Of a stretch of 48,696 nucleotides of DNA, positions 8,179 to 26,244 are shown piece after piece. Source of the DNA: Gammaproteobacteria bacterium (GTDB lineage: Bacteria > Pseudomonadota > Gammaproteobacteria > Chromatiales > Chromatiaceae). Location of the stretch: contig JAJRZI010000086.1 of assembly GCA_024275295.1 (NCBI GenBank), forward strand, positions 1 through 48,696. The letters run 5' to 3'. The notes beneath the pieces were generated by a model. The model was not told where the DNA came from and ran no database searches. It saw only the letters and a list, made by a program, of their open reading frames with translations. Numbering within the stretch: position 1 is the stretch's first letter; every line of letters begins with the position of its first letter. A program made the translations under genes and the position numbers.

Positions 8179-10410
<2,232 letters not shown>

Positions 10411-10899: not shown

Positions 10900-13662
10900 T
10901 TATCCGACATAGGTCACTTTGCTGGCTGGGGTACGGGTATCCATATTCCGACCTCGGTTGGTGTGATCGTCGATCTCTGCGGCACTACCGATCATACGTC
11001 CAAACAGGAACACGGTGAATGCTGCAGATTCCAGCTGACGCTCGCTGACCTTGCCTTCTGCATAGGGCTGCCACAGCATCTTCAGCAGGATCACAGCAAT
11101 AACGGCATCGACGTTAACGCAGTAAACATTCTTGCTGACACCCGTCTTGGCCAAGGCCTCAACCATGTTGTGGTAGTAGTCCAGGAAGATATTGTACTGA
11201 CCTTTCTCTTTGATCAGGTCGTTTACAAAAACTTCGCGTGGATCGTAGTTGACATCCTTGCCCTTGAATACAGGGTGGTTGATGCAGGGGATCTTGGCAT
11301 AAGAGAGTTCCCCAGCCGCCTTGGCCTGGGTTTTGTAGGCCTTATACTCTTTGGCATAGCTCAGCGCCATAGCCGCAAGATCCAAGCCATGGTTGGAATC
11401 GCCCGGATCTTTCAAGCCACTCTCTTTGAACTGCTGCATCAAGAAAGCCATTGCCTCGAAACCGTTGCCGCCATGAGCGTAGCCAGTGTGAGTCAGGAAG
11501 CCGATGTAGGACTTATTGACCTGTACACGCTCAGGAACCTCAGGGCCATCAGCACTGACAGCACCTTTGGCACCCTGGCCAGAGATGGTGCCAGGACCGT
11601 TGGTGGTCAACAGACCCAACAGAATGGAGAGTGCAAACAGCTCACCTTCAGTGGCCTTCGTACCCAACAGCGCCAGATGGGCTGTCTCGGTAAAGCACCA
11701 GTCATTCATCAGCTCTTGATCGGAGACACCGCAGAAACTGCCTGCCTGCTGCTGATCACCCGCAGCAGAGGAGCCGATCAAGGTGCTGAAGACACGAAAA
11801 TGCCATGGCATGTTAGTCAAGGTGGTCACAGAGACCCGCTTATGCATCAGCGACTTCCAAACCAGATGAGCACCTGCAGCTGCGGTGATGGCATCCTCAG
11901 CAATCGCTTTGCCGGTACGCTCTGCCAGTGCTTCCAAAGTGCGGATAAAAACAGACTTAACGCCACGTGCCTTGATAGCCGCCAGCATACCTTCACTGCG
12001 TGCAGTGGCACTATCGGCCAGTAGTACTTCAGCAGCAGGACCAGAGGCAGCCTGGTCAACGATAGCACTGATGTCAAAAGCCTCATCAGCAGGATCAGTC
12101 AGACCAGACTGTCCAAACAGATCCTTCAAGGCTTCAGCTGCAGCCTTGGCACCCGCCACCTTGTTTGGCCCAACAATAGCCACCGCAGAGGCCAGTACGG
12201 TATTAGGGCTGTTACCCGCCTCGCGTGCCGCATCCGCAGCCGCTACCGTTATCTCTCCTGCCTGATTGACATAGGCATTGAGAATAACGTTAGCCAAGGC
12301 ACTGCCATTGGCATCAGGATATTCACGTGCCAGCGAGAGAACCAGGTTATCTTCAAAGGTATGAGTAGAGGCATCCAGCACACTGACACCCTGCAGACGG
12401 CTGACCTGAGTTTTGGGATCCATCATAGAGGCGCCAGAGGCATCCTTCATCGTCTGGCGCGGGAAGACCACACCCACCTGCTCTAAAAGCGCAGCAATCT
12501 GCTGGCCATATGGCTCCACGGCAGTAACGAGCGGAGCATCCAGCTCTGCTGGCAGACCAATATCCAGATCACTGGCAAACCAGGGCTTCAATGAAAGATC
12601 ACCCCTGGGTTCAAAATCAGGCTGGATACCATTCTGAGCCATAACAGCGGTCAACGCTGCCGGGATGTGGGCAATGTTGGTCACCACGGCACCCTTGGCA
12701 GATAGCACGGGGTTTTCTGGGGTGTAGATATCGTCTACACCGAATTTCTCCATAAACCATGCCTCTTTGGCTTCGGCATTGTCACCTGAACCTGCGATAG
12801 CACCCGCATGCCCACAGGCGCGGGTCAGTTTAGATTTCCAGCGCCCCACGATACAGGCAACCACAGGCTTCTTGAGTTCGATATCATGCTCATAATAACC
12901 ACCGGGCTCGATATACATAACAGCAGCCTTGCTGCGGTCATCATTATGGAAGGCATGGGTAAATTCAGGTGCAGAGAAGTGAATATAGACATCCTTACCA
13001 GAGGAGACAGATACCGTGGTACCCCAACCTGCTGTCAGCATGTAGGTCGCAATGGTAGTAGTGAAGTTGCCAGAGTTTGAAAACAGGGCAATAGAACCCG
13101 GCACCAGAGACTCTTCAGGGGAGTTACCACCCAGCGCACCACCAATACGGATGTGCTTGTGAGCATCGGCAATACCCAGGCAGTTGGCGCCAAAGACATC
13201 AACACCCTGCTGCTGGCAGTACTGACGAATGATGCGAGAATCAGACAGTGGCACCTTCTAGGTGAGGATAACCACCTTATCGATCTCAGGATTAACGCGT
13301 ACAGCCTCAATAACCGAGTCCTTCACACCAGATGGTGGCACATAGACCACAGCCACGTTGAACTTGTGACCTGCATCCATGGCTTCCGCCACGTTGCTAT
13401 AGATGGGGATATCACCAGCCTCGGTCTTCATAACCGTACCGGAACGACCCGGCATAGTGCCACATACGATGTTGCCACCAGAGTAGACATGACTGACGGG
13501 GGTAACTGTGCGGCTTTCGCCGCCAGCAATATTGAGTACACAGACCCGATCACTCTTATTGGCGATCTGATCCAGGGAGTCGATCCCTACATAATAATGT
13601 TCGAAAGCCGCAACACCGCGTGGTGTCCGGCTATGTTTTCCAGAACTTGTTAATGATGACAT
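10900..13662 (-). CDS. aclA: ATP citrate lyase large subunit (type II form), interrupted by an in-frame TAG
   Basis: The large subunit joins a CoA-ligase alpha-like half to a citrate-synthase-like citryl-CoA lyase half. With AclB it cleaves citrate to acetyl-CoA and oxaloacetate using ATP, the key step of the reductive TCA cycle. The first half holds the CoA-binding part and the phosphohistidine motif GHAGAIAGSGDNAEAKEAW (His about 285 of the joined frame). The second half has DWCFTETAHLALLG and GYAHGGNGFEAM, resembling citrate synthase His regions. The joined frame is 921 codons, well above the ~610 aa of the common form, which fits the divergent type II enzyme. Codon 135 is TAG (13258-13260). 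After it the same frame runs to the end, with a GTG at 13254. The lost residue is probably the Glu of the ITEGVP-like motif (here T-stop-KVP), one base from GAG. Restart at the GTG would remove the nucleotide-binding N-terminus. Confidence 0.85.
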
Positions 13663-13723: not shown

Positions 13724-15019
13724 TCAGGCCGCTGTCTCGGACGTGGAATCAACACCCATCGCCTTGGCAATAGCCGCTCTACCGCCCTTGTTTTTCATCC
13801 AGTCATCAATATCTTTGGCATAGTTGACTACACCACTCATGGAAGAATCAAAACCGAACATACGGTAAGGAATCTTCAATCCATCCAGGGTGTCTTTCAT
13901 GTAACCCATTCCACGAACCAGGTTAGGACCACCACGCCCCACCACAACATAAAGCGGCTTGAGACCGTTGGTATTCATGTAGTCACGCAGGGCATCTGCC
14001 ATGGCACGGAAGGTCTCAAAAATATCGGTGTTATTGGCCTTACCACCGATAATGAACAGGACGTTGCTCTGCTCCAACCAGTACTTGTAGGTAATCCGGC
14101 TGATGTCATACATCTTCTCGTAAGGCGGGTTACCGCCAAAATCAGAGGAGACGATACCCGCATCACCCAGCAACTCGGTTACCAGGGCGTTAGCGCCGCC
14201 ACCGAAGGTCATCGCAGTGATAGAACCCTGATCATTGGTGACAAATACATCAGACTGACCCTGATAGGTACGCAGCTGGTTCACTTCACGCTCATACTCA
14301 CAAAGCTCGCCAGAATCCAGACTGGCTGGCAATTTCAGACGTTTCCAGTTTGGGTCATCGGTATCAAAGGAGCATTTGAAGTCGCAGGCTACAGGTACCA
14401 GTCGGCCCTTGGCATTAGGCATCATGCGGATAGGATTCAGCTCCAGCATGTTCATGCCATAGTTGTGGTAGAGATCCCACAGTTTCGGCAGGTTCTGAAC
14501 CAGTGGGCTGATGATCTCATTGGGTGCACCCAGCAGGCGCAGGGTATTTGAAATCACAAAGCCCTTCAGACCCGTTAGCGGATCAAAAGGCACGGTTGCG
14601 ATCTTGTCTGCGGGCAACTCTTCAATATCGACACCACCGTGGTGGGTGATCGTCAGGGTAGGTGCACGATATATTGTGCTATCCGTGATGGAGACATAGA
14701 TCTCATACTCGGCAGGGATACCACTTTCAAAGGTGACACCTTCTGCCTTGGCAACCGAATTACCGTGGGTGTGCTTGGCAAAGTAGAGGCGCTCTTTCTC
14801 TGCAATAGCCGTATCCAGATCTTTGGCAAAGCCGATCAGACCCGCTTTACCCTTCTTGCCAATGCCACCCTTGAACATGGGCTTGACCAGCACCAGACCC
14901 CACTTATCAAGCATGGCTTGAATTTCATCGATATTGGCTTCTGGCCCAAGAATCTCAGCACGTGGAAAATCCACATACTCAAGAAGCTTGGAACCCCACA
15001 ACATGCCTGTGATCTGCAT
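13724..15019 (-). CDS. aclB: ATP citrate lyase small subunit (ATP-grasp)
   Basis: The small subunit carries the ATP-grasp and CoA-ligase beta-like portions that phosphorylate and activate citrate together with AclA. Early residues include WGLVLVKPMFKGGIGKKGKAG, an ATP-grasp lysine/glycine loop. MNMLELNPIRMM supplies the metal-binding Glu/Asn. The TFGGGANALVTELLGDAG stretch is the ligase domain glycine loop. The length of 431 aa is slightly above the usual ~400. It lies 61 bp upstream of aclA and 49 bp downstream of mdh, so mdh-aclB-aclA read as one operon. The reading frame is intact, unlike aclA. Confidence 0.92.
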   Translation of the reverse strand: MQITGMLWGSKLLEYVDFPRAEILGPEANIDEIQAMLDKWGLVLVKPMFKGGIGKKGKAGLIGFAKDLDTAIAEKERLYFAKHTHGNSVAKAEGVTFESGIPAEYEIYVSITDSTIYRAPTLTITHHGGVDIEELPADKIATVPFDPLTGLKGFVISNTLRLLGAPNEIISPLVQNLPKLWDLYHNYGMNMLELNPIRMMPNAKGRLVPVACDFKCSFDTDDPNWKRLKLPASLDSGELCEYEREVNQLRTYQGQSDVFVTNDQGSITAMTFGGGANALVTELLGDAGIVSSDFGGNPPYEKMYDISRITYKYWLEQSNVLFIIGGKANNTDIFETFRAMADALRDYMNTNGLKPLYVVVGRGGPNLVRGMGYMKDTLDGLKIPYRMFGFDSSMSGVVNYAKDIDDWMKNKGGRAAIAKAMGVDSTSETAA

Positions 15020-15068: not shown

Positions 15069-16004
15069 TTAGAGACCCGTCTCTTTTACGGTGGAGATCA
15101 CCGCTTCAAGGGTCTTATCGAACATGGCCTGCTCTTCAGCCGTCATTTCAAATTCGAGAATCTTTTCGATGCCACCCGCGCCAATAACACAGGGAACACC
15201 CATAAAATAGCCATCTATACCGTATTCGCCTTCGCACAGAGCCGCAGAAGAGATGACACGTTTTTTGTCCCTGATATAGGCCTCAACCATTTCACAACAG
15301 GAGGCAGCAGGGCTATTGTAGGCACTGCCATTACCCAGCAGCTTGACCACCTCGGTACCTGCTTCACGGGTTCTATCCGCAATGGCATCAATCTTCTCTT
15401 TTGGCAAGAGGGCTTCAAGCGGCACACCACCAACCGTTGCAGTTCGCACCAGAGGGATCATAGTTGGACCATGGCCACCCAGCACAATGGCAGAAACATC
15501 TTCAGATGAGAGACCTGTCTCCATAGAGACAAAGGCTTTAAAACGACCGCTATCCAAGGCGCCAGCCATACCGACCACCCGCTCTTTAGGCAGGCCTGAT
15601 ATCTTATGGAAGGCATAGACCATAGCATCCAGCGGATTAGTGGTTAGAATAACGAAGGCATTTGGCGCATACTTTTTAATATTCTCTGCACCATCGCGAA
15701 TAATGCCCAGATTGATTTCCAGCAGATCATCACGGGTCATTCCCGGCTTTCTTGGCAGGCCTGCAGTTACCACGACAACATCTGCACCATCGATATCCGC
15801 ATAATCGCCCGTACCTGATAGATTTACGTCATATCCACCATGGGGTCTCAAGGCCATCATATCCAGAGCTTTGCCCTTCATAGGGTCTGACAACTCAGCT
15901 CGATCCAGTATCACCACATCACCCAGCTCTTTCTGAGCAATAAGGAGAGCCAAGATACTTCCTATCTGACCACCCCCAATTAAAGCAATTTTCTTCCTGG
16001 ACAT
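15069..16004 (-). CDS. mdh: Malate dehydrogenase (LDH-like type)
   Basis: This enzyme reduces oxaloacetate to malate with NADH, the step after citrate cleavage in the reductive TCA cycle. The Rossmann motif GGGQIGS is at residues 10-16, the substrate arginine region is RKPGMTRDDLL, NPLDAMVY follows, and the catalytic LDSGRF and GGHG are present. It is 311 aa, as usual. One oddity: the very conserved GGHGD(T/S)M reads GGHGPTMIPL, so proline replaces the aspartate after the catalytic His-Gly. It is first in the mdh-aclB-aclA operon and faces the hdr/frd/flx operon across a 755-bp divergent region. Confidence 0.93.
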   Translation of the reverse strand: MSRKKIALIGGGQIGSILALLIAQKELGDVVILDRAELSDPMKGKALDMMALRPHGGYDVNLSGTGDYADIDGADVVVVTAGLPRKPGMTRDDLLEINLGIIRDGAENIKKYAPNAFVILTTNPLDAMVYAFHKISGLPKERVVGMAGALDSGRFKAFVSMETGLSSEDVSAIVLGGHGPTMIPLVRTATVGGVPLEALLPKEKIDAIADRTREAGTEVVKLLGNGSAYNSPAASCCEMVEAYIRDKKRVISSAALCEGEYGIDGYFMGVPCVIGAGGIEKILEFEMTAEEQAMFDKTLEAVISTVKETGL

Positions 16005-16759
16005 ATTCTCTACCCCTTAGATTTTTAGTAGAAGAACCAGCTCATACAGCGCCATCAGCATCTGCCAAAACCAGTCTTGTTGTCAGTTTTTTGAGCGAAC
16101 AGCAAAAAGCTCACACGCCCTTTAAATTTTGAAAGGCGAAATATAAATGAAGAGTCGGCTTAAGTGTACCCCTAATTTGACCTAATCAACGCAGTGTTTC
16201 TTCTATAACAGGAAACAGATAGGGTTATAGTTATCCAGTAACACTGTTTCAGCTAATCCAGCACACCCTACTTAAGCTACCCACCACCACACCCCCTTAA
16301 GAGCTACAATTAATCACGGCACATACTATATGCTACTGATTCAACAGCACTTTAATCGATACTCACTTAACTGAATCACAGCGCTTCAAGCCCAAATCAA
16401 ACTAAAACCTTGATCAATATAAAGCTAAGAGGATTGCTTTTGGGTCAATTTTTAAAAAAATACAGCATCAACAATTCATCAAACAAAGCGAATATTAAGA
16501 AAACAGATAACTGGTAAAATCCAACTTGGGAATAAAACCCTGCATTGCAGGATGCGTATTTTCTTTAAATTACATTCACTTACAAAGTATTTGCAAATAC
16601 CACCCAAGAGATACAACCACATGAAAAGCAGGCTCGACACAATATTAATACAATGTCAATCTTGCACAAAAAGAGATCATAGGGTTGAATATGCAGCCTC
16701 GCTGCCATGCGGCTCACTTTGAGTCGGGTGGAGAACTGATTTTATTGAAGAGGTCAGGA
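16005..16759. promoter_or_regulatory. Divergent regulatory region between mdh and the hdr-frd-flx operon
   Basis: This 755-bp AT-rich stretch has no gene I can support. It must contain promoters for mdh-aclBA (minus) and hdrC onward (plus). Visible elements are an FNR-like TTGAT-N4-ATAAA site (16410-16423) and a small palindrome CCTGCA-T-TGCAGG (about 16540-16552). A 34-codon ORF at 16621-16725 is not convincing. Shared control of the two rTCA blocks is an inference from the layout. Confidence 0.5.
16410..16423 (+). promoter_or_regulatory. Possible FNR/CRP-family binding site
   Basis: TTGATCAATATAAA matches the FNR consensus TTGAT-N4-ATCAA at 9 of 10 defined positions. It lies 350 bp before hdrC and 400 bp before mdh, in the divergent region. 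A single match of this kind arises often by chance in AT-rich DNA. Confidence 0.22.
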
Positions 16760-17152
16760 ATGCTGATCAACCCAGTTGAGAAAGACCAAAAATCTATACG
16801 TGAACTTGAGCTCGCTACCGGCGAGACCATCTCCGACTGCTATCAGTGCGGCAAATGCACAGCTGGCTGCCCAGCATCCATGGATCCTGCGCCCAGTGTA
16901 CTTATTCAGTACCTCAAGCTGGGACAGTTTGAATTGGCCAGAAATGCAGAATCCATCTGGTCATGCATGGCTTGCTTGACCTGCTCTGAGCGTTGCCCAA
17001 AGAATGTCAGCCCAGCCGCTATCATTGAAGGACTCAAGAATTTACATCTGCGCGATATGGACCCCAGGGTAAATCTTGAGACAATGAGTCGGGACTTTAT
17101 TGCTCACTCACCGCAGATGGCTATCATCAGCGGCTTTCGTAAATTTATATAA
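16760..17152 (+). CDS. hdrC: HdrC-like 4Fe-4S protein
   Basis: This soluble electron-transfer subunit of the heterodisulfide reductase type would pass electrons from HdrA to HdrB. Two ferredoxin-type clusters are visible: C27, C30, C33, C37 and C69, C72, C75, C79 (counted from ATG 16760). I prefer this start over the longer frame from 16685 because purine-rich AGGTCAGGA precedes it and the protein then begins as the family does. It is 130 aa with no membrane segment, so it is not an HdrE/DsrM type. It is the first gene of the nine-gene operon; hdrB follows after 17 bp. Confidence 0.88.
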   Translation: MLINPVEKDQKSIRELELATGETISDCYQCGKCTAGCPASMDPAPSVLIQYLKLGQFELARNAESIWSCMACLTCSERCPKNVSPAAIIEGLKNLHLRDMDPRVNLETMSRDFIAHSPQMAIISGFRKFI

Positions 17153-17169
17153 GTATTTAAGGAATTCGG

Positions 17170-18084
17170 ATGTCAGACAAACCTGTTCGCGTTCCCTATT
17201 ATCCTGGGTGCACCATGAAAACCAAGGCGCTCGGATTTGAGCGCTCCGCTATGGATTGTGCCGAGGTCATCGGCTTTGAGATGGACGAGTTGAAGGATTG
17301 GAACTGCTGCGGCGCTTCCTACCCTCTCACCAAAGATAACCTGATGGGGCTCACCGCTCCCACCAATATATTGGTGGAAGCAGAGAGACGTTGCCAGAAA
17401 GAGGAGGTTGACCCCAACCTGCTAACGCTCTGCGTCTTCTGCTACAACACCCTGAAACGTACTGAATATGCGTTTGGTCAGGATAAGAAAAAGCTCGAAA
17501 CCGTTAATGCCTTCCTCGATCGCAAATATGACGGTTCCATTCGGGTAATCCACTATCTGGAATATCTGCGTGATGTCATCGGTTTTGACAATCTGGCAAA
17601 GATGGTTAAAACCGACATGAGCAAATATAGGGTGGCCCCGTACTATGGCTGCCTGCTGCTAAAGCCTAAAAAAGAGATCGGCCTGGATGACCCAGAAGAT
17701 CCTGTCATCCTGCACAACTTTCTGGATGCACTCGGCTGCAAGGTTATCGATTTCCCTGCCCAAGTTGATTGCTGCGGCTCATACCTTGTCATGCGTGAGC
17801 CAAAGAAGGTATCCAAACTTTCATACGACATTCTGGCAGATGCAAACGAATACGGTGCCGAAACACTGGTCACCGCCTGTCCACTCTGCCAGTCAAATCT
17901 GGATAAAAGCCAGGGGGATAAAGTACAGTTTGCTGACCTTGACGGCATGCCCGTACTCTATTTTACCCAGCTCCTGGCCGTTGCTTTCGGCCTGGACACC
18001 AAGACCCACCAACTTGAAGCGCATCACATCGACCCAAGACCTCTATTTGAGGCCAAAGGCGCTGCCGATGACGAATCCAAGTAA
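17170..18084 (+). CDS. hdrB: HdrB-like CCG-domain protein
   Basis: HdrB carries two CCG domains that in methanogens bind the noncubane 4Fe-4S clusters acting on heterodisulfide. Both domains look complete: C14, C46-C47, C88, C91, then C161, C201-C202, C237, C240. It has 304 aa, and AAGGAA precedes the ATG. In methanogen thiol:fumarate reductase this CCG part is fused to the FrdB-like subunit (TfrB). Here it is a separate gene directly before the frdB-like gene, so its partner is probably the fumarate reductase module. The true oxidant on this branch (a disulfide, or only internal electron relay) is not shown by the sequence. Confidence 0.9.
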   Translation: MSDKPVRVPYYPGCTMKTKALGFERSAMDCAEVIGFEMDELKDWNCCGASYPLTKDNLMGLTAPTNILVEAERRCQKEEVDPNLLTLCVFCYNTLKRTEYAFGQDKKKLETVNAFLDRKYDGSIRVIHYLEYLRDVIGFDNLAKMVKTDMSKYRVAPYYGCLLLKPKKEIGLDDPEDPVILHNFLDALGCKVIDFPAQVDCCGSYLVMREPKKVSKLSYDILADANEYGAETLVTACPLCQSNLDKSQGDKVQFADLDGMPVLYFTQLLAVAFGLDTKTHQLEAHHIDPRPLFEAKGAADDESK

Positions 18085-18110
18085 TTTCGAGTCTGATCAG
18101 GAGTCAGTCT

Positions 18111-18899
18111 GTGACTAAATGTACAGAAGATAACAAGCCAATCATGGTCGGTGACCGGACCATTCCGCCACCAGACGCACGTTACATCACCATCAGCATT
18201 ATGGGGCAGCCCTATGAGGTGCCTGAAACCCTGACCATCCTGAAAGCGATGGAATTTGTTGGGTATCAGTTCAAGCGTGGTTGCGGCTGTCGTGGCGGCA
18301 TCTGCGGTGCTTGCGGCACCTTCTACCGAATTGACGGGGATCACACCCTGAAGACCGGGCTGGCCTGTCAGACTGTGGTCGAACCCGGCATGATTCTAGC
18401 TCAGGTGCCCTTCTTCCCGTCCAATCGTGCGTCAGATCTTGATCTCGAAAGCAAGATGCCTGCAGATCAGCAGATCGCTACCATGTACCCTGAGATCTTC
18501 CGCTGTGTAGGCTGCGGCACCTGTACACGCACCTGCCCCATGGATATCGATGTCATGGGTTACATCGCCTACTTCAAACGTGGCGACATCAAGGGCGGTG
18601 CAGAAAAATCATTTGACTGCATCATGTGCGGCCTCTGTGCGGCACGCTGTCCAGCCAATATATCTCAGTTCAATGTCGCAATGACCGCCCGTCGTATAGC
18701 GAGTGCCAAGCTGACACCAAAATCTGGGGTTACCGCTGCACGCGCCGAGCAGGTTCGCTCTGGCCGCTATGAGCCGATGCTGGCTGAACTCTGTGAAATG
18801 AGCGGTGAAGACTTAAAGAAACTTTACGTGGAACGCGAGCGTGAACCCGACTTGGCCAAGCCAGGCGAGTGGATGCCCGAAGACCAGACTCATCTATAA
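18111..18899 (+). CDS. frdB: Fumarate reductase/succinate dehydrogenase iron-sulfur subunit (Tfr-like)
   Basis: This is an electron-transfer subunit with an N-terminal 2Fe-2S site (C58, C60, C65, C68 and C86) and two C-terminal clusters (C132, C135, C138, C142 and C170, C173, C176, C180). This is the SdhB/FrdB/TfrB arrangement. The start is GTG 18111 with AGGAG upstream. At 262 aa it has a short N-terminal extension (about 20 aa) and a charged C-terminal tail. No membrane anchor subunit (FrdC/D, SdhC/D) is encoded nearby, so the enzyme should be soluble and fed by HdrBC rather than by quinol. Confidence 0.88.
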   Translation: MTKCTEDNKPIMVGDRTIPPPDARYITISIMGQPYEVPETLTILKAMEFVGYQFKRGCGCRGGICGACGTFYRIDGDHTLKTGLACQTVVEPGMILAQVPFFPSNRASDLDLESKMPADQQIATMYPEIFRCVGCGTCTRTCPMDIDVMGYIAYFKRGDIKGGAEKSFDCIMCGLCAARCPANISQFNVAMTARRIASAKLTPKSGVTAARAEQVRSGRYEPMLAELCEMSGEDLKKLYVEREREPDLAKPGEWMPEDQTHL

Positions 18900-18910
18900 G
18901 CGAGGAAAGC

Positions 18911-20581
18911 ATGTCCGAAGGTTACACTCCAGAAATGCTCGACCTGATCAAACGGGTCGAGGAAAGTCGCCCTCAGCGCCTATCTGAGTCACGTGCTGGG
19001 AAAGCATTCCCTGCCATGTCAATGGATGCACGGGACGTAGTCCTGAACGCATTCCACCCAGACTATACCGAAGAGGGTCGTCGCGCTCTCGGGATCGGCC
19101 CGAACAAAGATGAGGTCTACCCCGAAGAGCTGATTGATCTGCTGGAATCCCGCAGCATACTGGAAGCGGTCAAGCCAGACCTCTCAACGCCTGGTTATGA
19201 GACCGATGTACTGGTCATCGGCGGTGGCGGTGGTGGTAGCGCAGCCGCACTAAGTGCAGCAGGCGAAGGGCTGAATGTCATCATGGCTACCAAACTACGT
19301 CACGGCGACTCCAACACCGTTATGGCCGAAGGCGGCATTCAAGGTGCCGATCAGGAGCCGGACTCCCCATACTTCCATTATCTTGACGTTATCGGTGGTG
19401 GTCACTTCACCAACGAACGCTCACTTGTAGCCGCCATGACCAACGATGCACCCGTCATTATTGAGTGGCTGGAATCACTGGGCATGATGTTTGACAAACA
19501 CCCCGATGGCCGCATGAAAGCCCGTCACGGTGGTGGTACCAGCCGTAAGCGCATGCACTCTGCGGGTGATATGACCGGCGCTGAAATTATGCGTGTGCTG
19601 CGTGATGAGACACGCGACCGCAAAGACAAAATCAAGATTCTGGAATTCTCACCCGCTATTGAACTGCTGATGGATGAGAACGGCCGTTGTGCTGGTGCTG
19701 TCCTGAACAACATGGAGACCGGTGCCTACTACACCGTAAAAGCCAAGACCACCATCATCGCCACTGGCGGTACCGGTCGTCTGCACTACCGCGGCTTCGC
19801 CTGCACCAACCACTACGGTGCAACCGGTGATGGCCTGGTGATGGCCTACCGCGCAGGTGCCAAACTGGGCTACATGGACTCTGTTCAGTATCACCCAACA
19901 GGCACCGCCTACCCCGAACAAAACGTCGGCCTGCTGGTAACCGAAAAGGTACGTGGTCTGGGCGGACAGCTATTGAACATCGACGGCGAACAGTTCGTAT
20001 TTCCACTGGAACCCCGTGATGTCGAATCTGCCGCCATCATTCGTGAGTGTGTCGGCAACGGCAAAGGCGTAAAGACCCCAACGGGTCGCCTTGGCGTCTG
20101 GCTGGATTCACCGCTTATTGACGAGTTACACGGCCCAGGTACTGTGCAGCGTGAGCTGCCAGCCAAATACATTCAATTCAAGCGCTTTGGCATCGATATC
20201 GCCAAGGTACCCATGCTAGTCTACCCAACGCTGCATTATCAAAATGGCGGCATTGCCATCAATGATCAGTCTGAGACTACAATCCCCGGACTCTATGCCG
20301 CAGGTGAGACCACCGGTGGCGTACATGGTCACAACCGCTTAATGGGTAACTCTCTACTGGATATCCTGGTATTTGGTCGTCGTGCTGGTCAAGCGGCCGC
20401 TACAGCTATTGCCGGTGGCGCTGAACCCGGTACAGCCAGCCTGGATCATCTGGTTGAGTACGGAAAAACCCTGAGTGATGCCGGACTCGATCGTGGTGCA
20501 GTCAGCCCGATGATCCTACCCAACTACGCAACAGATGAAATTCGGTCGCGTCGGTGGGACGTTAAGTCCCCTACCGTTTAA
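18911..20581 (+). CDS. frdA: Fumarate reductase flavoprotein subunit (soluble, noncovalent-FAD type)
   Basis: This is the catalytic subunit of the FrdA/SdhA/TfrA family, reducing fumarate to succinate. The FAD motif GGGGGG starts at about 104. The substrate-site motifs are HPTG and HGHNRLMGNS (His/Arg pair). The residue that is normally the flavin-linked His in SHT(V)AAEGG is Asn135 here (SNTVMAEGG), so FAD is probably bound noncovalently, as in soluble fumarate reductases and L-aspartate oxidase. I use ATG 18911 (GAGGAAAGC upstream) and not the longer frame. About 97 residues precede the FAD domain, an uncommon extension that may dock other subunits. It has 556 aa. L-aspartate oxidase is the main alternative, disfavoured by the FrdB and Hdr neighbours. 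Confidence 0.85.
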   Translation: MSEGYTPEMLDLIKRVEESRPQRLSESRAGKAFPAMSMDARDVVLNAFHPDYTEEGRRALGIGPNKDEVYPEELIDLLESRSILEAVKPDLSTPGYETDVLVIGGGGGGSAAALSAAGEGLNVIMATKLRHGDSNTVMAEGGIQGADQEPDSPYFHYLDVIGGGHFTNERSLVAAMTNDAPVIIEWLESLGMMFDKHPDGRMKARHGGGTSRKRMHSAGDMTGAEIMRVLRDETRDRKDKIKILEFSPAIELLMDENGRCAGAVLNNMETGAYYTVKAKTTIIATGGTGRLHYRGFACTNHYGATGDGLVMAYRAGAKLGYMDSVQYHPTGTAYPEQNVGLLVTEKVRGLGGQLLNIDGEQFVFPLEPRDVESAAIIRECVGNGKGVKTPTGRLGVWLDSPLIDELHGPGTVQRELPAKYIQFKRFGIDIAKVPMLVYPTLHYQNGGIAINDQSETTIPGLYAAGETTGGVHGHNRLMGNSLLDILVFGRRAGQAAATAIAGGAEPGTASLDHLVEYGKTLSDAGLDRGAVSPMILPNYATDEIRSRRWDVKSPTV

Positions 20582-20606
20582 GTAACGAACGGCGAAGGAG
20601 TAAAGT

Positions 20607-22655
20607 ATGGCCAAAATTGGCGTCTTTGTCTGTCAGTGCGGCAATAACATTGCACGCACCGTTGATACTGCTGAGGTGGCGAAGTACATCGGCGAGCAGG
20701 ACGGCGTGGTGCATGTCGAAGATTATAAATTCATGTGCTCCGCCCCTGGGCAGGAGATGTTCAAGAAAGCGATTAAAGAGAAAGGACTGGATGCCTGTAT
20801 CGTCTCCGCTTGTAGCCCAAAAATGCACGAAGCCACCTTCCGCAACGCAGCAGAAGCGGCTGGACTCAATCCATTTAAGGTAGAGATCGCCAACATCCGT
20901 GAGCAGTGCTCCTGGGTGCATGACGACAAAGCAGTGGGAACCGTCAAGTCAAAGGATTTGACCAAGATGATGGTTGAACGCATCAAGTTCAACAAGCCGC
21001 TGGAACGCTACGTCATGCCACTGACCAAACGCGCACTGGTGCTTGGTGGTGGTATCGCCGGCATTCAGGCTTCACTGGATCTAGCCCAAGCCGGCATTGA
21101 AGTACATATTGTCGAGCGTGAACCATCACTGGGCGGCAACATGGCACGTCTCTCTGAGACCTTCCCTACCCTGGATTGCTCTCAGTGCATCATGACCCCG
21201 CGTATGGTGGAGGTACAAAACCATCCGCTCATTACCGTACACGCCTACGCCGAACTGGAGCAGCTTTCAGGCTTCATTGGCAACTTCCGCGCACGTATCC
21301 GCCAAAAAGCCAAGTTCGTCATCGACGATCTCTGCACTGGCTGTGGTGAGTGCTGGGAAAAATGTCCATTCTCTACCGAGAGTGAGTTTGAGATGGGGCT
21401 GGCAAAACGCAGCATCATCTACATTCCATTCCCGCAGGCTGTGCCTACCGTACCTGTCATCGATAAGACAGAATGCCCCAAGATTCTGAAGGACAAATGC
21501 GGTCTCTGCGCCGATGTCTGCGGCCCTGACTGCATCGACTTCACCCAGCAGGATGAGATCAAAGAGATTGATTTCGGTGCTGTTATCGTGGCTACCGGCT
21601 TTGAGCTGATGCCAAATGTCTACCGTGAGTATGGCGGCTGGCGTCCACCTCACATGACACCCAAGAAACTGACCGCCAAACAGCGCAAGGCTCTGCCCCG
21701 CTCAGACGCTGGTCGTTTGGTTGACGTTATCAACGGCCTTGAATTCGAGCGGCTGGCCTCTGCATCAGGCCCTACCGGTGGTCAGATCCGTCGCCCATCC
21801 GATGGCAAGATTCCAGAAACCGTGGTATTCATCGCCTGCGTCGGCTCGCGTGACTGCAACAAGGGTGTAGAGTACTGCTCCAAGATCTGCTGCATGTACA
21901 CTGCCAAGCACACCATGCTCTATCAACATGCTGTGCATCACGGCAAGTCCTTCGTCTTCTACATGGATATCCGTGCAGGCGGCAAAGGCTACGAGGAGTT
22001 TATTAACCGAGCTCAGGATGAAGGTGCACAGTATATCCGTGGCCGCGTCTCTCGCCTCACCAAGCGAGGCGACAAGATTCTGGTCAAGGGCGCAGATACC
22101 CTCACCGGTCAAGCTGTAGACGTTGAAGCGGATATGGTAGTACTGGCTACCGCTATGGTATCGCAAGGCGATTCCGAAGAGGTCGCTCAAACCTTAGGTA
22201 TCGGCTACGACAAACACGGCTTCTTCTCTGAGCAGCATCCAAAGCTCATGCCGGTCGAGTCATCAACAGGTGGCATCTTCCTCGCCGGCGCTTGCCAGGG
22301 TGTAAAAGATATCCCAGAGACGGTCTCACAAGCCTCTGCGACCGCCGCTAAGGTACTCGCCCTCTTCTCTAAAGATGAGATGATGCGCGACCCTGAGGTA
22401 GCGATCGTCAACCAAGAGAAGTGCATGAACTGCTGGGACTGCGTCACCGTATGCCCCTATCTCGCCATCGACCGGGTTGAGCTGAAGGATCGCAACGGCA
22501 ACTTCCGCAAGTGGGCCGCATATGTGAACCCAGGGCTCTGCCAAGGCTGTGGACTGTGTAACACCGCATGCCGCTCCAAGAGCATTGAGCTTATGGGTTA
22601 CACCAACGAGCAGGTCTACGCCCAGATCACCGCCTTTGGCGGGGACATTATTTAA
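20607..22655 (+). CDS. hdrA: HdrA-like FAD/iron-sulfur protein, putative electron-bifurcating core
   Basis: HdrA holds the flavin that splits electrons in flavin-based bifurcation. Visible features in order are an N-terminal Cys-rich domain (CQCG at 9-12), FAD motif GGGIAG (148-153), the HdrA-typical DCSQC (190-194), a ferredoxin-like cluster at C243-C253, a CGLCADVCGPDC segment, and two C-terminal clusters (CMNCWDCVTVCP and CQGCGLCNTACR). It has 682 aa, in the HdrA range. It lies after frdA with its own ribosome site GAAGGAG and before flxD. The expected job is to take electrons from the Flx unit and send them to HdrBC/FrdBA and to ferredoxin. Confidence 0.92.
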   Translation: MAKIGVFVCQCGNNIARTVDTAEVAKYIGEQDGVVHVEDYKFMCSAPGQEMFKKAIKEKGLDACIVSACSPKMHEATFRNAAEAAGLNPFKVEIANIREQCSWVHDDKAVGTVKSKDLTKMMVERIKFNKPLERYVMPLTKRALVLGGGIAGIQASLDLAQAGIEVHIVEREPSLGGNMARLSETFPTLDCSQCIMTPRMVEVQNHPLITVHAYAELEQLSGFIGNFRARIRQKAKFVIDDLCTGCGECWEKCPFSTESEFEMGLAKRSIIYIPFPQAVPTVPVIDKTECPKILKDKCGLCADVCGPDCIDFTQQDEIKEIDFGAVIVATGFELMPNVYREYGGWRPPHMTPKKLTAKQRKALPRSDAGRLVDVINGLEFERLASASGPTGGQIRRPSDGKIPETVVFIACVGSRDCNKGVEYCSKICCMYTAKHTMLYQHAVHHGKSFVFYMDIRAGGKGYEEFINRAQDEGAQYIRGRVSRLTKRGDKILVKGADTLTGQAVDVEADMVVLATAMVSQGDSEEVAQTLGIGYDKHGFFSEQHPKLMPVESSTGGIFLAGACQGVKDIPETVSQASATAAKVLALFSKDEMMRDPEVAIVNQEKCMNCWDCVTVCPYLAIDRVELKDRNGNFRKWAAYVNPGLCQGCGLCNTACRSKSIELMGYTNEQVYAQITAFGGDII

Positions 22656-22682
22656 AGTCTTCAGGTTTAAAAGAGCTGATAC

Positions 22683-23168
22683 ATGGGAAAGAAAATCGAA
22701 ATACATGACTTTGAACCAAAGATCATGGCCTTCGTGTGCAAATGGTGCACATACTCTGGTGCCGATCTTGCTGGCACCAGCCGTATGGACTACTCACCAA
22801 ACGTGCGTATGATACGCTTGCCGTGCTCAGGCCGCATTGATCCACAGTTCCTGATCAAAGCCTTCGAGCAGGGCGCCGATGGCGTCCTTGTCTCCGGTTG
22901 TCATCCAGGTGATTGTCACTACAACGAAGGCAACTATTACGCTCGTCGTCGTAATACAACCTTTCGCCAGCTGATGGATTTCAATGGTATCGATATAGAA
23001 CGCATCGAGTTCTCATGGATATCTGCAGCAGAAGCCATCAAGTGGACATAGGTCGTCGATGCCTTTACCGAGAAGGTTCGTGAATTAGGCCGTCATCCAC
23101 AATACAACGATGACATTGTTGACCCCTACGCCCAGTTTCTGGTGCAGAAAGATCAGGAGTCCGCATGA
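22683..23168 (+). CDS. flxD: FlxD/MvhD-like 2Fe-2S protein, interrupted by an in-frame TAG
   Basis: This small subunit links HdrA to its electron donor (MvhD in methanogens, FlxD in bacteria). The 2Fe-2S cysteines are C19, C22, C48, C73 and C78 (FVCKWC, LPCSGR, GCHPGDC). A TAG at 23049-23051 (codon 123) cuts the protein to 122 aa. The same frame continues for 38 codons to TGA 23166-23168, and that TGA overlaps the ATG of flxC in the ATGA form expected for a coupled operon. The frame after TAG (VVDAFTEKVRELG) is as well preserved as the rest. The lost codon may have been Gln (CAG), one base away. The truncated form would keep the cluster but lose the C-terminal helix. Confidence 0.85.
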
Positions 23169-24058
23169 TCGAGCAAATCCGTAACCAGGCCCGCCTGCTG
23201 CTGGAAAATGGCGATGTTGATGTCGTAATTGGTTATGCCGAAGGGAGTGATCCCACGCGCACAACACCTGTTTTCATACGCAAGGCGGAAGATGTAGACA
23301 AACTGATCTACGATCCACGCTGCATCAACTCTCTGCCGCTCTATCTCAACAAGCGCCACGAGTACACACGCAAGGGTTGGAAAAAGACGGCTATTATCGG
23401 CAAGGGTTGTGACATCCGCGCCATCGTTCAGCTGATCGCTGAAAACCAGCTGAAACGCGATGAGATCTACATCCTTGGCGTCCCCTGTGAAGGTGTTGTC
23501 TCCCATCCCGAGAAGTGGGACGGCAGCCTGCATGATGGCAACCGCGCCAGCAAGTGTACTGACTGTGATGTCATGACCCCTCATGAGACTGACTTCTTTC
23601 CAGGCGATAAACCAGACATTGACCGTTCTAACCCATATGAGGCAACCTCTAAAAATGTTGCAACTCTTATGGAGCTGGAGCTGGACAAGCGCTTTGCCTT
23701 CTGGCGGACAGACTTTGATCGTTGCTTTAAATGCTACGCCTGTCGCGAGGTATGCCCACACTGCTCATGCAATGTCTGCATTACCGATGAGACAACGCCC
23801 AGCTGGATCGACCCAGCTGCACATAAAAAGGGCATTTTCTCCTGGCATCTGACCCGCGCCATGCACCTGGTTGGACGATGCACCGGTTGCGGGGAATGCA
23901 CCCGCGCCTGCCCAATGGGTATTCAGGTGGATCTCTTCAACCAACGCATGAAAGAGGTTGTACAAGAGAGCTACAGTTACAAACCGGGCTACTCTCTGGA
24001 AGACAAGCATCCGTTGATCACCTACAAGGTCGACGACCGCGAGGATTTCATCAAGTAA
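23165..24058 (+). CDS. flxC: FlxC-like iron-sulfur protein (F420-hydrogenase beta/Fd domain type)
   Basis: The N-terminal half resembles the F420-hydrogenase/dehydrogenase beta family (GKGCDIRAIVQLIAENQ, ILGVPCEGVV). It is followed by a Cys-rich part (CFKCYACREVCPHCSCNVC, about 187-205) and a ferredoxin-type cluster CTGCGECTRACP (239-250). Together with FlxB it should move electrons between FlxA's flavin and FlxD/HdrA. It has 297 aa. Its ATG overlaps the flxD stop. The gap to flxB is about 96 bp. Confidence 0.8.
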   Translation: MIEQIRNQARLLLENGDVDVVIGYAEGSDPTRTTPVFIRKAEDVDKLIYDPRCINSLPLYLNKRHEYTRKGWKKTAIIGKGCDIRAIVQLIAENQLKRDEIYILGVPCEGVVSHPEKWDGSLHDGNRASKCTDCDVMTPHETDFFPGDKPDIDRSNPYEATSKNVATLMELELDKRFAFWRTDFDRCFKCYACREVCPHCSCNVCITDETTPSWIDPAAHKKGIFSWHLTRAMHLVGRCTGCGECTRACPMGIQVDLFNQRMKEVVQESYSYKPGYSLEDKHPLITYKVDDREDFIK

Positions 24059-24154
24059 TACGGAACCGAGATATAGGCCCAAGAGAGACCAAGTCCACTG
24101 CCCTGGCCTTGCATCCCAAAGGCACATTTGAGTTTTGATTCGAATCGTGAATTT

Positions 24155-25267
24155 ATGAAAACAGCCACACTTAACAAAAGCGACATCGGTAAATGCATTG
24201 ATCTATTGGTGCAGGCCGATCTACGGGTGATCGCCCCACGCCTTCAGCCTCAACTGGATGAAGATGGCCCTGACTCCATCGATGTGCTCACCTTCACTGA
24301 AGTCAAGTCGGGTGATGATCATCAGGTTGGCGAAGGCCTGCTCCCACTCAACGGCGTAAAGGAGTTTCTGTTCGCAAAACATGAGCCTCTATTTGCCTAC
24401 GAGAAACGTGGTAAAAAGATTGAGATCATCCCGGTTCATCATGAGTACCCACAGACGGTAATCATTGGTGTGCGCCCCTGTGACGCGGCTTCAATCGCCT
24501 CACTGGAGTCGGTCTTCTCAGATGCCAACGCAGGCTTTGAAGACCCATTCTTCACCGAGCGGCGTTCACGTACCACCTTCATCACCTACTCCTGCACCGC
24601 GCCGGATTCCAGCTGCTTCTGTACCTCGGTTAATCTATCACCCGATAGCGCCAAGGGATCAGATCTGCACCTGACTGAGATCGGTGACGGTCGTCTGCAC
24701 GTTGAAGTGATTACCAAGGCCGGTGAAGCTGTAGCCAAACAACTTCAAGATCTGCTTGAAGGAGAAGGCGATCGGGGCGCTCGTGAAAAAGCAGGCGCTG
24801 AAGTCACTGAGAAACTGACCCGCATTCGCGATTCAGCCCCCATCATGGATTGGCTGATGGACACCGCCAACTTTGACGATGAGATGTGGCAACGCCTTGG
24901 CGAGAAATGCATCGGCTGTGGAGCCTGTACATTTGTCTGCCCCACCTGCCACTGCTTTGACATCGTTGACGAAAACAAAGGCTCCAAGGGCTACCGCGTC
25001 AAATTCTGGGACTCCTGCCAGTTTGACCACTTCACCCTGCACGCCTCTGGCCACAACCCCCGTGACTGGCAGTACAAACGCTATCGCAACCGTTTCAACT
25101 GCAAGTTCAAGATCTATCCAGAGAAATTTGAGACCCCAGGTTGCGTTGGCTGCGGTCGTTGTATCCGCGCCTGCCCAGTCAACCTGGATATTACCGAATA
25201 CATGGCCGAGGTCGCCCACAAGGCAGCCAATCCAAACGCCATGAAAGCTGATCCAGATTTCGAATAA
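24155..25267 (+). CDS. flxB: FlxB-like 4Fe-4S protein (HydB/AsrA type)
   Basis: This is a two-cluster iron-sulfur protein of the sulfhydrogenase beta / anaerobic sulfite reductase A type, a partner of FlxA. The clusters are at C252-C262 (CIGCGACTFVC) and C330-C340 (CVGCGRCIRAC). An N-terminal domain with HHEYPQTVIIGVRPCDAASI is typical. The start is uncertain. ATG 24155 fits the family N-terminus but lacks a good ribosome site. TTG 24128 has AAAGG in front and would add nine residues. It has 370 aa from the ATG. Confidence 0.85.
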   Translation: MKTATLNKSDIGKCIDLLVQADLRVIAPRLQPQLDEDGPDSIDVLTFTEVKSGDDHQVGEGLLPLNGVKEFLFAKHEPLFAYEKRGKKIEIIPVHHEYPQTVIIGVRPCDAASIASLESVFSDANAGFEDPFFTERRSRTTFITYSCTAPDSSCFCTSVNLSPDSAKGSDLHLTEIGDGRLHVEVITKAGEAVAKQLQDLLEGEGDRGAREKAGAEVTEKLTRIRDSAPIMDWLMDTANFDDEMWQRLGEKCIGCGACTFVCPTCHCFDIVDENKGSKGYRVKFWDSCQFDHFTLHASGHNPRDWQYKRYRNRFNCKFKIYPEKFETPGCVGCGRCIRACPVNLDITEYMAEVAHKAANPNAMKADPDFE

Positions 25268-25346
25268 ATCACCGGGAGTGATTTATCACGTAAGCCCCAC
25301 AGGGGTGAGTCTCAAGGATGAGACGAATAATAAAGGTATTACATCC

Positions 25347-26192
25347 GTGTCCAATATCTATCAACCCGATCTCATGACCATTACCAAGGTCATCCAAGAA
25401 GCGCCGGGCATCAAAACCTTTCACCTGCAATTTCAGGATGAAAACGTCGCCAAAAACTTTAGCTTCCAGACTGGTCAATTTGGCGAATACTCCGCCTTTG
25501 GCGCGGGAGAGAGTACATTCTGTATCGCCTCCTCCCCCACCCGCCCGGATCACATCGAGTGTTGCTTCCGTGAGACAGGCAAGAATACTGCAGCTCTTGC
25601 CAACCTGACAGAAGGTGACACCATCGGCTTTCGCGGCCCCTATGGCAACACCTTCCCGCTGGATGACTGGAAAGGTAAAAACCTCATCTTCATCGGTGGT
25701 GGTATTGCCCTGCCCCCACTGCGTTCCGTCATCTGGAACTGCCTCGATCTGCGCGAACAGGATGGCCGCTTCGAACACATCTCCGTGATCTACGGTGCCA
25801 AAACCGTGCAGGATCTGGTCTACAAACGCGAGCTTGAAGAGTGGGATCAGATGGACAACGTCACCATGGTCAAAACCGTTGACCCCGGTGGCGAGACCGA
25901 AGATTGGGATGGTCATGTGGGTTTCGTGCCTCACGTACTGGAAAATGAGGTCAAGCCCGACCCAGAGAACACCATCGCCATCGTCTGTGGCCCACCCATC
26001 ATGATCAAATTCACCTTTGAAGCGCTGGAACGCCTTGGCTTCAAACAGGATCAAATGGTCACCACCATGGAAAACCGCATGAAATGCGGCATAGGTAAAT
26101 GCGGGCGCTGCAACATCGGCTCTGTCTATGTCTGTATTGATGGCCCTGTCTTCACAGCCACTGAACTGGCAGCGCTTCCTAACGATTTCTAA
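25347..26192 (+). CDS. flxA: FlxA-like FAD/NAD(P)-binding oxidoreductase (HydG/AsrB type)
   Basis: This is the probable NAD(P)H-oxidising entry point of the Flx unit. A flavin-binding barrel is followed by an NAD-domain loop (IFIGGGIALPPLRSVI) and a C-terminal 2Fe-2S site (CGIGKCGRCNIG... C). GTG 25347 has AAAGG upstream and gives a family-like N-terminus of 281 aa. The frame is open further up to GTG 25278, but that part does not look like the family. Whether it prefers NADH or NADPH is not visible. It is the last gene of the operon; a strong terminator follows at 26205. Confidence 0.82.
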   Translation: MSNIYQPDLMTITKVIQEAPGIKTFHLQFQDENVAKNFSFQTGQFGEYSAFGAGESTFCIASSPTRPDHIECCFRETGKNTAALANLTEGDTIGFRGPYGNTFPLDDWKGKNLIFIGGGIALPPLRSVIWNCLDLREQDGRFEHISVIYGAKTVQDLVYKRELEEWDQMDNVTMVKTVDPGGETEDWDGHVGFVPHVLENEVKPDPENTIAIVCGPPIMIKFTFEALERLGFKQDQMVTTMENRMKCGIGKCGRCNIGSVYVCIDGPVFTATELAALPNDF

Positions 26193-26204: not shown

Positions 26205-26244
26205 AAAAGGCGGTTCAGTCAAATAGACTGAACCGCCTTTTTTT
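26205..26244 (+). terminator. Strong rho-independent terminator after flxA
   Basis: AAAGGCGGTTCAGTC pairs with GACTGAACCGCCTTT across a short loop, followed by seven T's. It is the cleanest terminator in the window and marks the end of the hdr-frd-flx operon, 12 bp after flxA. Confidence 0.9.

Follow-up and report, generated by a model that had tools for sequence, protein, structure and literature searches.

The nine-gene run and its products

The stretch analysed here, referred to as the window, is the 48,696 nt of contig JAJRZI010000086.1 (contig 28 of the 3.2-Mb, 162-contig genome GCA_024275295.1) from a gammaproteobacterium of the Chromatiaceae. It carries nine plus-strand open reading frames (ORFs) at 16760-26192 which, from the ORF list and scans with Pfam and NCBIfam, encode Hdr proteins, a fumarate reductase-like FrdBA pair and Flx proteins in the order hdrC-hdrB-frdB-frdA-hdrA-flxD-flxC-flxB-flxA, with spacings of -31 to +113 nt between the listed ORFs. 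The run is separated from a minus-strand mdh gene by a divergent intergenic region (16005-16759) and is followed by an intrinsic-terminator-like hairpin (26205-26241, plus strand) with a 16-bp stem (-29.4 kcal/mol, z -9.25). No transmembrane segments were predicted in the nine proteins, and no 19-residue Kyte-Doolittle window reached 1.6 (maximum 1.43). The one-strand gene order, the divergent region of 755 bp (with the hdrC start placed at 16760), the strong terminator and the lack of fumarate reductase membrane anchors in the run had all been put forward in the initial annotation, and all four stand. It should be noted that the hairpin is absent from the list produced by a consensus terminator scan, because its stem probably occupies part of the T run.

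HdrC (16760-17152) has two [4Fe-4S] motifs and a frame open from 16685, and we prefer the ATG at 16760 as its start because of a GAGG motif upstream and because the frame is shorter in relatives (135 codons in loci L004, L005, L008 and L014, and 153-154 in L006 and L007). HdrB (17170-18084) contains two complete CCG (non-cubane cluster) motifs, and FrdB (18111-18899) combines a plant-type [2Fe-2S] domain with an HdrC-like domain bearing two [4Fe-4S] motifs. The FrdA flavoprotein (18911-20581, from an ATG at 18911 in a frame open from 18869) belongs to FAD_binding_2, and HdrA (20607-22655) is the FAD and Fe-S subunit. These are followed by FlxD of the MvhD/FlpD family (22683-23051), FlxC with two [4Fe-4S] motifs (23165-24058), the AsrA/sulfhydrogenase-beta-like Fer4_22 protein FlxB (24128-25267; the next in-frame ATG is at 24155) and FlxA, an NAD(P)H-binding flavin and [2Fe-2S] subunit with a DHODB Fe-S domain (25278-26192). 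All seven FlxABCD-HdrABC subunits are therefore present together, with FlxD shortened by an in-frame TAG (23049-23051) which lies 3' of the MvhD domain, a conserved region at residues 14-121 of the 122-residue product; the frame beyond this stop reaches the length seen in relatives, some 40 aa more. The same nine-gene order is found uncut in seven loci of the lineage (the window, L004, L005, L006, L007, L014 and L125, with the L006 FlxD label obtained in the first labelling round only), and dN/dS against genome G205 (FrdA 96% identical) was 0.02-0.05 in six of the nine genes, a comparison made up to the stop in FlxD and without HdrC, FrdA and FlxC, for which the script gave no match.

Among the NCBIfam models, FrdA scored highest with TfrA (NF004900; 344 bits, below its cut-off of 718) and lower with those for succinate dehydrogenase, fumarate reductase and aspartate oxidase. 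The NadB model TIGR00551 gave 279 bits, short of its cut-off of 453, and a separate true NadB is found on C2 of the same genome (953 bits versus a cut-off of 629, and 663 bits on TIGR00551); the SdhA of this genome is also a separate gene that passes its own cut-off. In an alignment of 54 sequences (four of these being FrdA2, a sister paralogue described below, and with L007, L047, L055 and L057 left out for their stop codons), H342, T358, E359, R383, H456 and R490 are invariant and align by eye with the HPTG, TEG, RD, HY and NRL motifs of solved SdhA. We take these, by the alignment, to be the fumarate-reductase active-site residues, which FrdA thus retains. N149 is also invariant and occupies the position where the SdhA alignment has the His that binds FAD covalently, and the FAD of FrdA should therefore be non-covalent. 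The AlphaFold model of FrdA (pLDDT 82.7) matched the solved fumarate reductases 1kf6_A (E. coli FrdA; Foldseek E 1.8e-29) and 1d4c_C (flavocytochrome c fumarate reductase; Z 34.8). FrdA has a short C-terminus and an N-terminal extension of about 100 aa (from residue ~15-20 to 105; 18911-19183 in the window) which is ordered in the model, had no Pfam match, is common to FrdA2 and includes an invariant HPD (63-65) and G77; this is perhaps a docking part.

The [2Fe-2S] and both [4Fe-4S] motifs of FrdB were present in 80/80 FrdB ORFs of at least 200 aa (an unfiltered count), and all 12 Cys were invariant in an alignment of 59 sequences, for which 58 of 72 eligible locus rows had been picked by the [2Fe-2S] motif that itself holds three of the 12. 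The [4Fe-4S] motifs are two full CxxCxxCxxxC sequences, and the [3Fe-4S]-type motif of complex II was not found, with cluster types predicted from motifs. No CCG domain was found in FrdB by Pfam, NCBIfam or alignment, and its C-terminal part matches HdrC at 38% over 61 residues, partly owing to the ferredoxin motifs; the same part of the FrdB model also resembles HdrC in structure (8rvu_c, Z 8.1 over 88 residues, rmsd 2.9). A VIA-align comparison of FrdB returned mostly [2Fe-2S]-domain chains and no SdhB/FrdB chain among the matches listed, which excludes nothing. The CCG motifs of the window HdrB (C14/C46-47/C88-C91 and C161/C201-202/C237-C240) were both also found in 67/67 HdrB-labelled ORFs of at least 280 aa. 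Since the NCBIfam TfrB model spans both the FrdB-like and HdrB-like parts, we read the two proteins as a split TfrB. Because FrdB has no CCG domain and the run has no anchor, the operon offers no evident source of electrons other than HdrB or HdrC, and HdrB would be the natural one for FrdB. The route from HdrBC to FrdBA suggested in the initial annotation thus gains support from FrdB which, unlike TfrB, lacks a CCG domain.

HdrA is collinear with the solved bifurcating HdrA of a methanogen, 5odc_A (E 4e-183; residues 3-676 versus 5-648), and keeps its FAD and Fe-S regions (the Cys-rich regions were compared by eye), with wider spacing than 5odc_A in one inserted ferredoxin motif. The Lys aligned with position 409 of the 5odc_A chain is also present. 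The solved chain nearest to FlxA is sulfhydrogenase 1 gamma (9nez_C, E 2e-57).

Conservation of the FrdBA and Hdr partnership

We compared loci around the best 80 of 134 confirmed FrdA relatives, picked by likeness to the window FrdA; these are mostly contigs of metagenome-assembled genomes (MAGs) and their organism names are record titles. Genes were labelled by their top phmmer match within a small set of reference proteins (E <= 1e-5 first, 1e-6 later and 1e-8 once), with representative neighbours confirmed by NCBIfam and the NuoF-like, GltD-like and Vor/Por-like names resting on NCBIfam checks or on eye; absences of a label are partly labelling failures (for instance that of FrdB in L033 and L050, or of FlxA where the DNA is GC-rich). 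In the 47/80 loci with complete flanks (at least 4 kb either side of frdA), the frdA strand carries an Hdr gene within 10 kb in 46 and both HdrA and HdrB in 43. Other same-strand neighbours of frdA are KorABC (31/47), FlxB (29/47), fumarase (8/47), SucCD (6/47) and the Mvh hydrogenase (3/47).

As controls we used loci of FrdA2, where Hdr was found on the same strand in 0/11 counted loci (11 of 29 matches were counted, and L092 from the window's own genome was fetched and left out of the count); three of the control genomes (G207, G202 and G076) also have the Hdr-linked form. In one FrdA2 locus, L138, an HdrB-like ORF is located on the opposite strand beside sdhAB, as would be expected for an SdhE-type anchor. 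The fetched loci are biased to FrdA, a bias from which a count of HdrA across the window's taxonomic order is free. FrdA of the window class was found in 23/210 genomes of this order (10 at 77-100% and 13 at 54-58% identity), and an independent search for HdrA (E <= 1e-100) also found 23/210, with the two sets overlapping in 22 of 23 genomes; these are related and do not represent 22 independent events. G206 has FrdA (a partial match) and HdrB, with no HdrA match. Chance adjacency of frdBA and the Hdr genes was rejected on these figures (46/47 versus 0/11 control loci, and 22/23 co-occurrence), and the partnership of FrdBA with HdrABC and Flx on which the initial annotation was built is conserved well beyond chance.

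We note that the FrdB2-FrdA2 pair found at L092:4375-6736 (G000 contig 136) also occurs at L138, L141 and L142. A NuoF-like gene lies beside FrdA2 in 9/11 counted loci, the L092 pair adjoins aconitase and pntA, and some FrdA2 loci adjoin a two-subunit KorAB; FrdBA2 may be a further soluble enzyme linked to NADH, either a fumarate reductase or a succinate dehydrogenase. Searching the window genome for the NuoE family gave no match, and this result was not used.

By record title and taxonomy, Hdr-linked FrdA is found in Pseudomonadota, Myxococcota, Aminicenantota, Cloacimonadota, Delongiibacteriota, Fidelibacterota and Spirochaetota, and further in Bacteroidota, Bacillota, Acidobacteriota, Atribacterota and Sumerlaeota, several of these phyla being represented by a single MAG contig. 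The order hdrCB-frdBA-hdrA-flxDCBA is that of the window lineage, with frdBA-rubrerythrin-like-hdrCB-korDABC-hdrA-flx in Gallionellaceae and others, hdrB-kor-hdrA-flxDCBA-frdBA in Aminicenantes, and hdrA-hdrCB-frdBA-sucCD-fum in Delongbacteria (L017, with an HdrA-FlxD fusion). In Cloacimonadota (L036:122-14667), sucD-fum-korDABC-hdrCBA-flxD-frdBA-mvhGA lie on one strand, a run which we read as a reductive half-branch with H2 input. Content that stays constant while its order is shuffled between lineages is typical of a functional unit. The donor module also differs among the loci, being marked by FlxB in 29, by the Mvh hydrogenase in three and by the fusion in L017, and donors may plug onto a common acceptor module: Flx for NADH, Mvh for H2 and the fused HdrA-FlxD for others. 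We suggest tentatively, as something rather short of probable, that HdrABC-FrdBA might be a general acceptor module, a soluble bifurcating fumarate reductase present in about a dozen phyla, with exchangeable donors and an optional 2-oxoglutarate:ferredoxin oxidoreductase (OGOR) as ferredoxin user, and that in the window lineage it might serve carbon fixation by the reductive tricarboxylic acid (rTCA) cycle without RuBisCO.

In the Kor-linked proteobacterial type, frdA and hdrC are separated by a gene for a rubrerythrin/EncB-like ferritin-fold protein (for example L128:10519-11094), found in 23/80 loci as well as in 3/9 loci taken from the window's taxonomic order; this neighbour perhaps provides oxygen protection.

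Metabolic setting and lineage of the operon

Divergent from the operon, on the minus strand, are genes for malate dehydrogenase (mdh, 15069-16004), the small subunit of a citrate lyase/citryl-CoA synthetase pair (13724-15019, with ATP-grasp and Citrate_bind domains), the large subunit of this pair (10900-13662, recognised from its CoA-ligase domains and its context) and an isocitrate dehydrogenase of the monomeric type (8179-10401). The solved chain nearest to the small subunit is the citryl-CoA synthetase large subunit 6hxq_B (E 1.8e-35), and the large subunit has CoA-binding and ligase domains only, with no lyase domain in a domain scan at E 1e-5. Following published clusters, we provisionally identify the pair as a type II ATP citrate lyase. 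The adjacency of acl and mdh to the operon, which the initial annotation had pointed out, holds for the window, L004 and L006 but is not general across the seven loci with the same gene order: no acl or mdh was found upstream of hdrC in the 2.4 kb available for L005, 7.2 kb for L007, 7.9 kb for L014 and 6.6 kb for L125, and the genomes of these four have AclB elsewhere. The rTCA setting itself, also proposed at the outset, was supported by homologues of the small citrate-lyase subunit, AclB, in 10/10 genomes with the window lineage.

Like FlxD, AclA is interrupted in this assembly by an in-frame TAG (13258-13260, minus strand) which relatives read through. The two stops may be sequencing error, lesion or something else; the citrate-lyase break would be odd for an organism with no detected RuBisCO and may be an error or a strain-level lesion. 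Amber recoding with pyrrolysine was not supported as a cause (the best PylS match was 28 bits versus a cut-off of 178), and TAG terminates 9/48 greedily called ORFs, a rough count that includes spurious ORFs and which also weighs against recoding.

RuBisCO was not found in 9/10 window-lineage genomes (G000, G203-G207, G011, G032 and G033, all bearing citrate lyase) in a Pfam search that covered RuBisCO alone among the rival CO2-fixation markers, and it is present in G202. The KorABCD-type alpha subunit had no match at E <= 1e-60 in eight of the ten genomes and a 34-35% match in two. The Kor-linked type of the same taxonomic order has citrate lyase in 11/13 genomes, the KorABCD alpha subunit in 13/13 and RuBisCO in 13/13 (in pieces in G077). 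The oxidoreductases of the window genome are a two-subunit KorAB, two PFOR-type genes and one three-subunit enzyme on C52, for which the best models are PorA, below cut-off, and which could by its sequence be an OGOR or a pyruvate:ferredoxin oxidoreductase. As FrdBA and not OGOR is common to both types, the balance shifts away from direct electron transfer to OGOR and in favour of fumarate reduction as the main function of the unit.

We undertook a quick IQ-TREE analysis of FrdA (100 rows, with L005, L008, L014 and any FrdA shorter than 500 aa dropped beforehand), which placed 86 FrdA of the Hdr-linked type in one clade apart from 12 FrdA2 (SH-aLRT 99 each). The window FrdA clade joins rows from Myxococcota and deltaproteobacteria, and the Kor-linked proteobacterial FrdA are near those of Aminicenantes, except for the long branch L133 (G044) outside them. 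The window HdrA, FlxD, FlxB, FrdA and FrdB are closer to their counterparts in L011 (Myxococcota) than to those of the two remaining groups, with HdrB tied at 0.43 (L011 HdrB is cut short). The tree and these subunit distances together suggest that the Hdr-FrdBA unit probably entered Pseudomonadota at least twice, and the view that the window operon simply derives from the tubeworm-symbiont operon by loss of KorABCD is not favoured, with FrdA and 5/6 of the subunits nearest to Myxococcota/delta.

It should also be noted that L007 and L008 are titled Polarisedimenticolaceae while the matching genomes, G032 and G204, fall in the window's family, and these records are likely mislabelled or mis-binned. 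In G204, contigs 59 and 18 carry two copies of HdrA and the end of FrdA, each 94-96% identical to the window, which may reflect duplication or mixed strains.

Proposed electron route, alternatives and significance

We consider that there is a strong case for FrdBA and Hdr-Flx working together on fumarate and succinate. The fumarase, SucCD and KorABCD neighbours point to these as the substrates, and the interpretation given in the initial annotation is supported in part. The chances that they form one physically joined, bifurcating complex seem to us about even, and we lean slightly towards the operon encoding a single soluble NAD(P)H:fumarate oxidoreductase, very likely a bifurcating one. The basis for this is the gene content, the intact predicted cofactor and active sites, the cross-phylum partnership and the pathway context, and from these we infer contact between HdrB/C and FrdB, the direction of flow and bifurcation. 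FlxA would take hydride from NAD(P)H, and FlxB, FlxC and FlxD would relay the electrons to HdrA, at whose FAD each electron pair would be split. One branch would run by way of HdrC, HdrB and FrdB (the two [4Fe-4S] clusters and then [2Fe-2S]) to the FAD of FrdA, reducing fumarate to succinate, and the other would run from HdrA to ferredoxin for the 2-oxoglutarate and pyruvate synthases. The net reaction would be 2 NAD(P)H + fumarate + oxidised ferredoxin -> succinate + reduced ferredoxin (2 e-). Using E0' values of +33 mV for fumarate and -320 mV for NADH, as quoted in PMC5861303, and about -450 mV for ferredoxin, from the abstract of PMC10734219, the coupled reaction is calculated to release ~43 kJ per fumarate under standard conditions and is therefore feasible.

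A number of observations weigh against this reading. L069 has complete flanks and no Hdr within 10 kb, 15 other loci also have no Hdr (each cut short on at least one side), and as the loci were picked by likeness to the window FrdA, the count of 46/47 is uninformative on more distant FrdA. G034 has HdrA without FrdA. The Z of 8.1 for the HdrC-like part of the FrdB model against 8rvu_c is a score which the tool itself notes as weak for a helical domain, and the model is of middling confidence (pLDDT 70.9, pTM 0.50). Distance correlations between subunits, which we rejected as evidence of contact, were 0.61-0.98 across nearly all pairs, Kor included, and singled out no contact. HdrB keeps both disulfide-reductase-type clusters, making a disulfide acceptor possible, and the genome has other candidate fumarate-reducing or succinate-oxidising enzymes in SdhAB (L091) and FrdBA2 (L092). 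Biochemistry of such a complex was not found in the available parts of the open-licence literature searched, and the expression pattern of tfrAB in Endoriftia differs from that of the Hdr-Flx cluster according to the text available from PMC11636981.

The alternative that survives best, which we nevertheless regard as unlikely, is that one operon encodes two enzymes, with HdrABC-FlxABCD using NADH to reduce a disulfide carrier (DsrC-type or a small thiol) as well as ferredoxin, and this carrier then reducing fumarate by way of FrdBA, in the manner of the methanogen thiol:fumarate reductase. Both complete CCG motifs of HdrB and the ranking of TfrA as the best NCBIfam model of FrdA would suit such an arrangement, as would the binding of DsrC to FlxABCD-HdrABC that is reported for Desulfovibrio. 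A DsrC-like route is also among the options in the accessible text of PMC11636981. However, HdrB is the sole CCG protein of the operon, and the lack of CCG in FrdB leaves FrdBA alone with no known thiol-oxidising site.

We find it quite unlikely that the proteins form one complex acting as a plain NADH:fumarate reductase without bifurcation, in the manner of the soluble NADH-dependent fumarate reductase FrdABCDE that Hydrogenobacter is said to have. In its favour, electron transfer from NADH to fumarate runs steeply downhill without any need for coupling, such an enzyme is required by the rTCA cycle, and the ferredoxin-using KorABCD is not beside the window operon. Against this, HdrA is collinear over almost its full length with a bifurcating HdrA, a feature for which a plain enzyme would have no need, the operon of L125 is followed by PFOR, and the genome has ferredoxin-type oxidoreductases. 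It appears very unlikely that the complex operates in reverse, oxidising succinate together with reduced ferredoxin and yielding fumarate and NADH (or H2), so that heterotrophs would use it as a confurcating succinate dehydrogenase and only some lineages reductively. Citrate lyase is visible in only L004 and L006 among the DNA covered by the 80 loci, and SucCD, fumarase and hydrogenase neighbours would equally fit propionate or succinate oxidation, but the reverse reaction is ~43 kJ uphill under standard conditions and, in the window lineage, citrate lyase in 10/10 genomes with RuBisCO not found in 9/10 favours the reductive direction. Finally, action of FrdA on another enoate or on L-aspartate, with homology its only link to fumarate, is also very unlikely, for while L-aspartate oxidase models also match FrdA (at the 279 bits given above) and NadB shares the fumarate-reductase active-site residues, there is a separate true NadB on C2, the TfrA model outscores NadB on FrdA, and the neighbours include fumarase, SucCD and Kor.

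The putative NAD(P)H:fumarate oxidoreductase shares elements with several known systems. The catalytic flavoprotein fold is that of complex II/quinol:fumarate reductase, whereas the run has no membrane anchor, FrdB has no [3Fe-4S]-type motif, and FrdA has an Asn for the covalent-FAD His, an N-terminal extension and a short C-terminus. The putative enzyme resembles methanogen TfrAB in that FrdA best matches TfrA and that FrdB and HdrB cover parts of the TfrB model, and it differs in having FrdB and the CCG part on separate genes with HdrA, HdrC and an NAD(P)H module added. All seven Flx/Hdr subunits are shared with the Desulfovibrio FlxABCD-HdrABC, which as named is without FrdBA and is reportedly tied to ethanol metabolism.

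The idea of a joint Hdr-Flx/fumarate reductase is largely in print already, a point absent from the initial annotation, going by the portions of PMC6315080 and PMC11636981 that are available. The former (2019) reports that in the rTCA gene clusters of Thioflavicoccus and of tubeworm symbionts the flxABCD-hdrABC genes are intermixed with korABCD and tfrAB, and proposed that Hdr-Flx shuttles electrons directly to OGOR and TfrAB; the latter (2024) likewise proposed that electrons pass from Hdr-Flx to these two enzymes, and in Endoriftia places korABCD between hdrA and hdrBC. These systems are like the window in that an rTCA cluster containing aclAB has Hdr-Flx next to a fumarate reductase of the TfrAB type, and a joint complex and electron bifurcation were proposed there, in the text available. 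They differ in that they carry RuBisCO, whereas the window genome gave no RuBisCO match; in the window FrdBA sits between HdrCB and HdrA, the KorABCD alpha subunit went unmatched at E <= 1e-60, and FrdA shares only 54-58% identity with the FrdA of Kor-linked type in the same taxonomic order. The accessible text of PMC8542988 (2021) reports a TFR-OGOR-fumarase-SCS-Mvh-Hdr cluster in Ca. Celaenobacter (Cloacimonadota; L049 bears the title of that MAG), which has the FrdBA family with HdrABC and differs in having a hydrogenase donor instead of Flx and in its Hdr being described as heterodisulfide-linked. In Thiomargarita, frdA lies beside hdrA and mvhD (PMC4914600, 2016, from the part available). 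Fumarate, mentioned six times in the text available from the 2018 review PMC5861303, is not described there as the acceptor of a bifurcating enzyme, and an exact-phrase search for a bifurcating or Hdr-linked fumarate reductase gave no match in the open-licence literature. Within the available parts of that literature, and among the papers listed, we found no description of the Kor-less nine-gene form, of RuBisCO-less hosts or of the spread across phyla. What is new here is a separate lineage nearest to Myxococcota/delta, without KorABCD, in which citrate lyase is kept and RuBisCO mostly not found, and an evolutionary case broader than that found in print.

If the proposed NAD(P)H:fumarate oxidoreductase is real, the energetically generous step of the rTCA cycle would be tied directly to the making of its hardest-to-get reductant, and the cost of CO2 fixation would be lowered without a membrane. 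The Mvh hydrogenase neighbour in Cloacimonadota suggests the same logic with H2. Relatives of the window organism with citrate lyase and no detected RuBisCO offer a cleaner test case than the tubeworm symbionts with their two pathways, and in this lineage fumarate reduction would pay for the ferredoxin of the next carboxylation.

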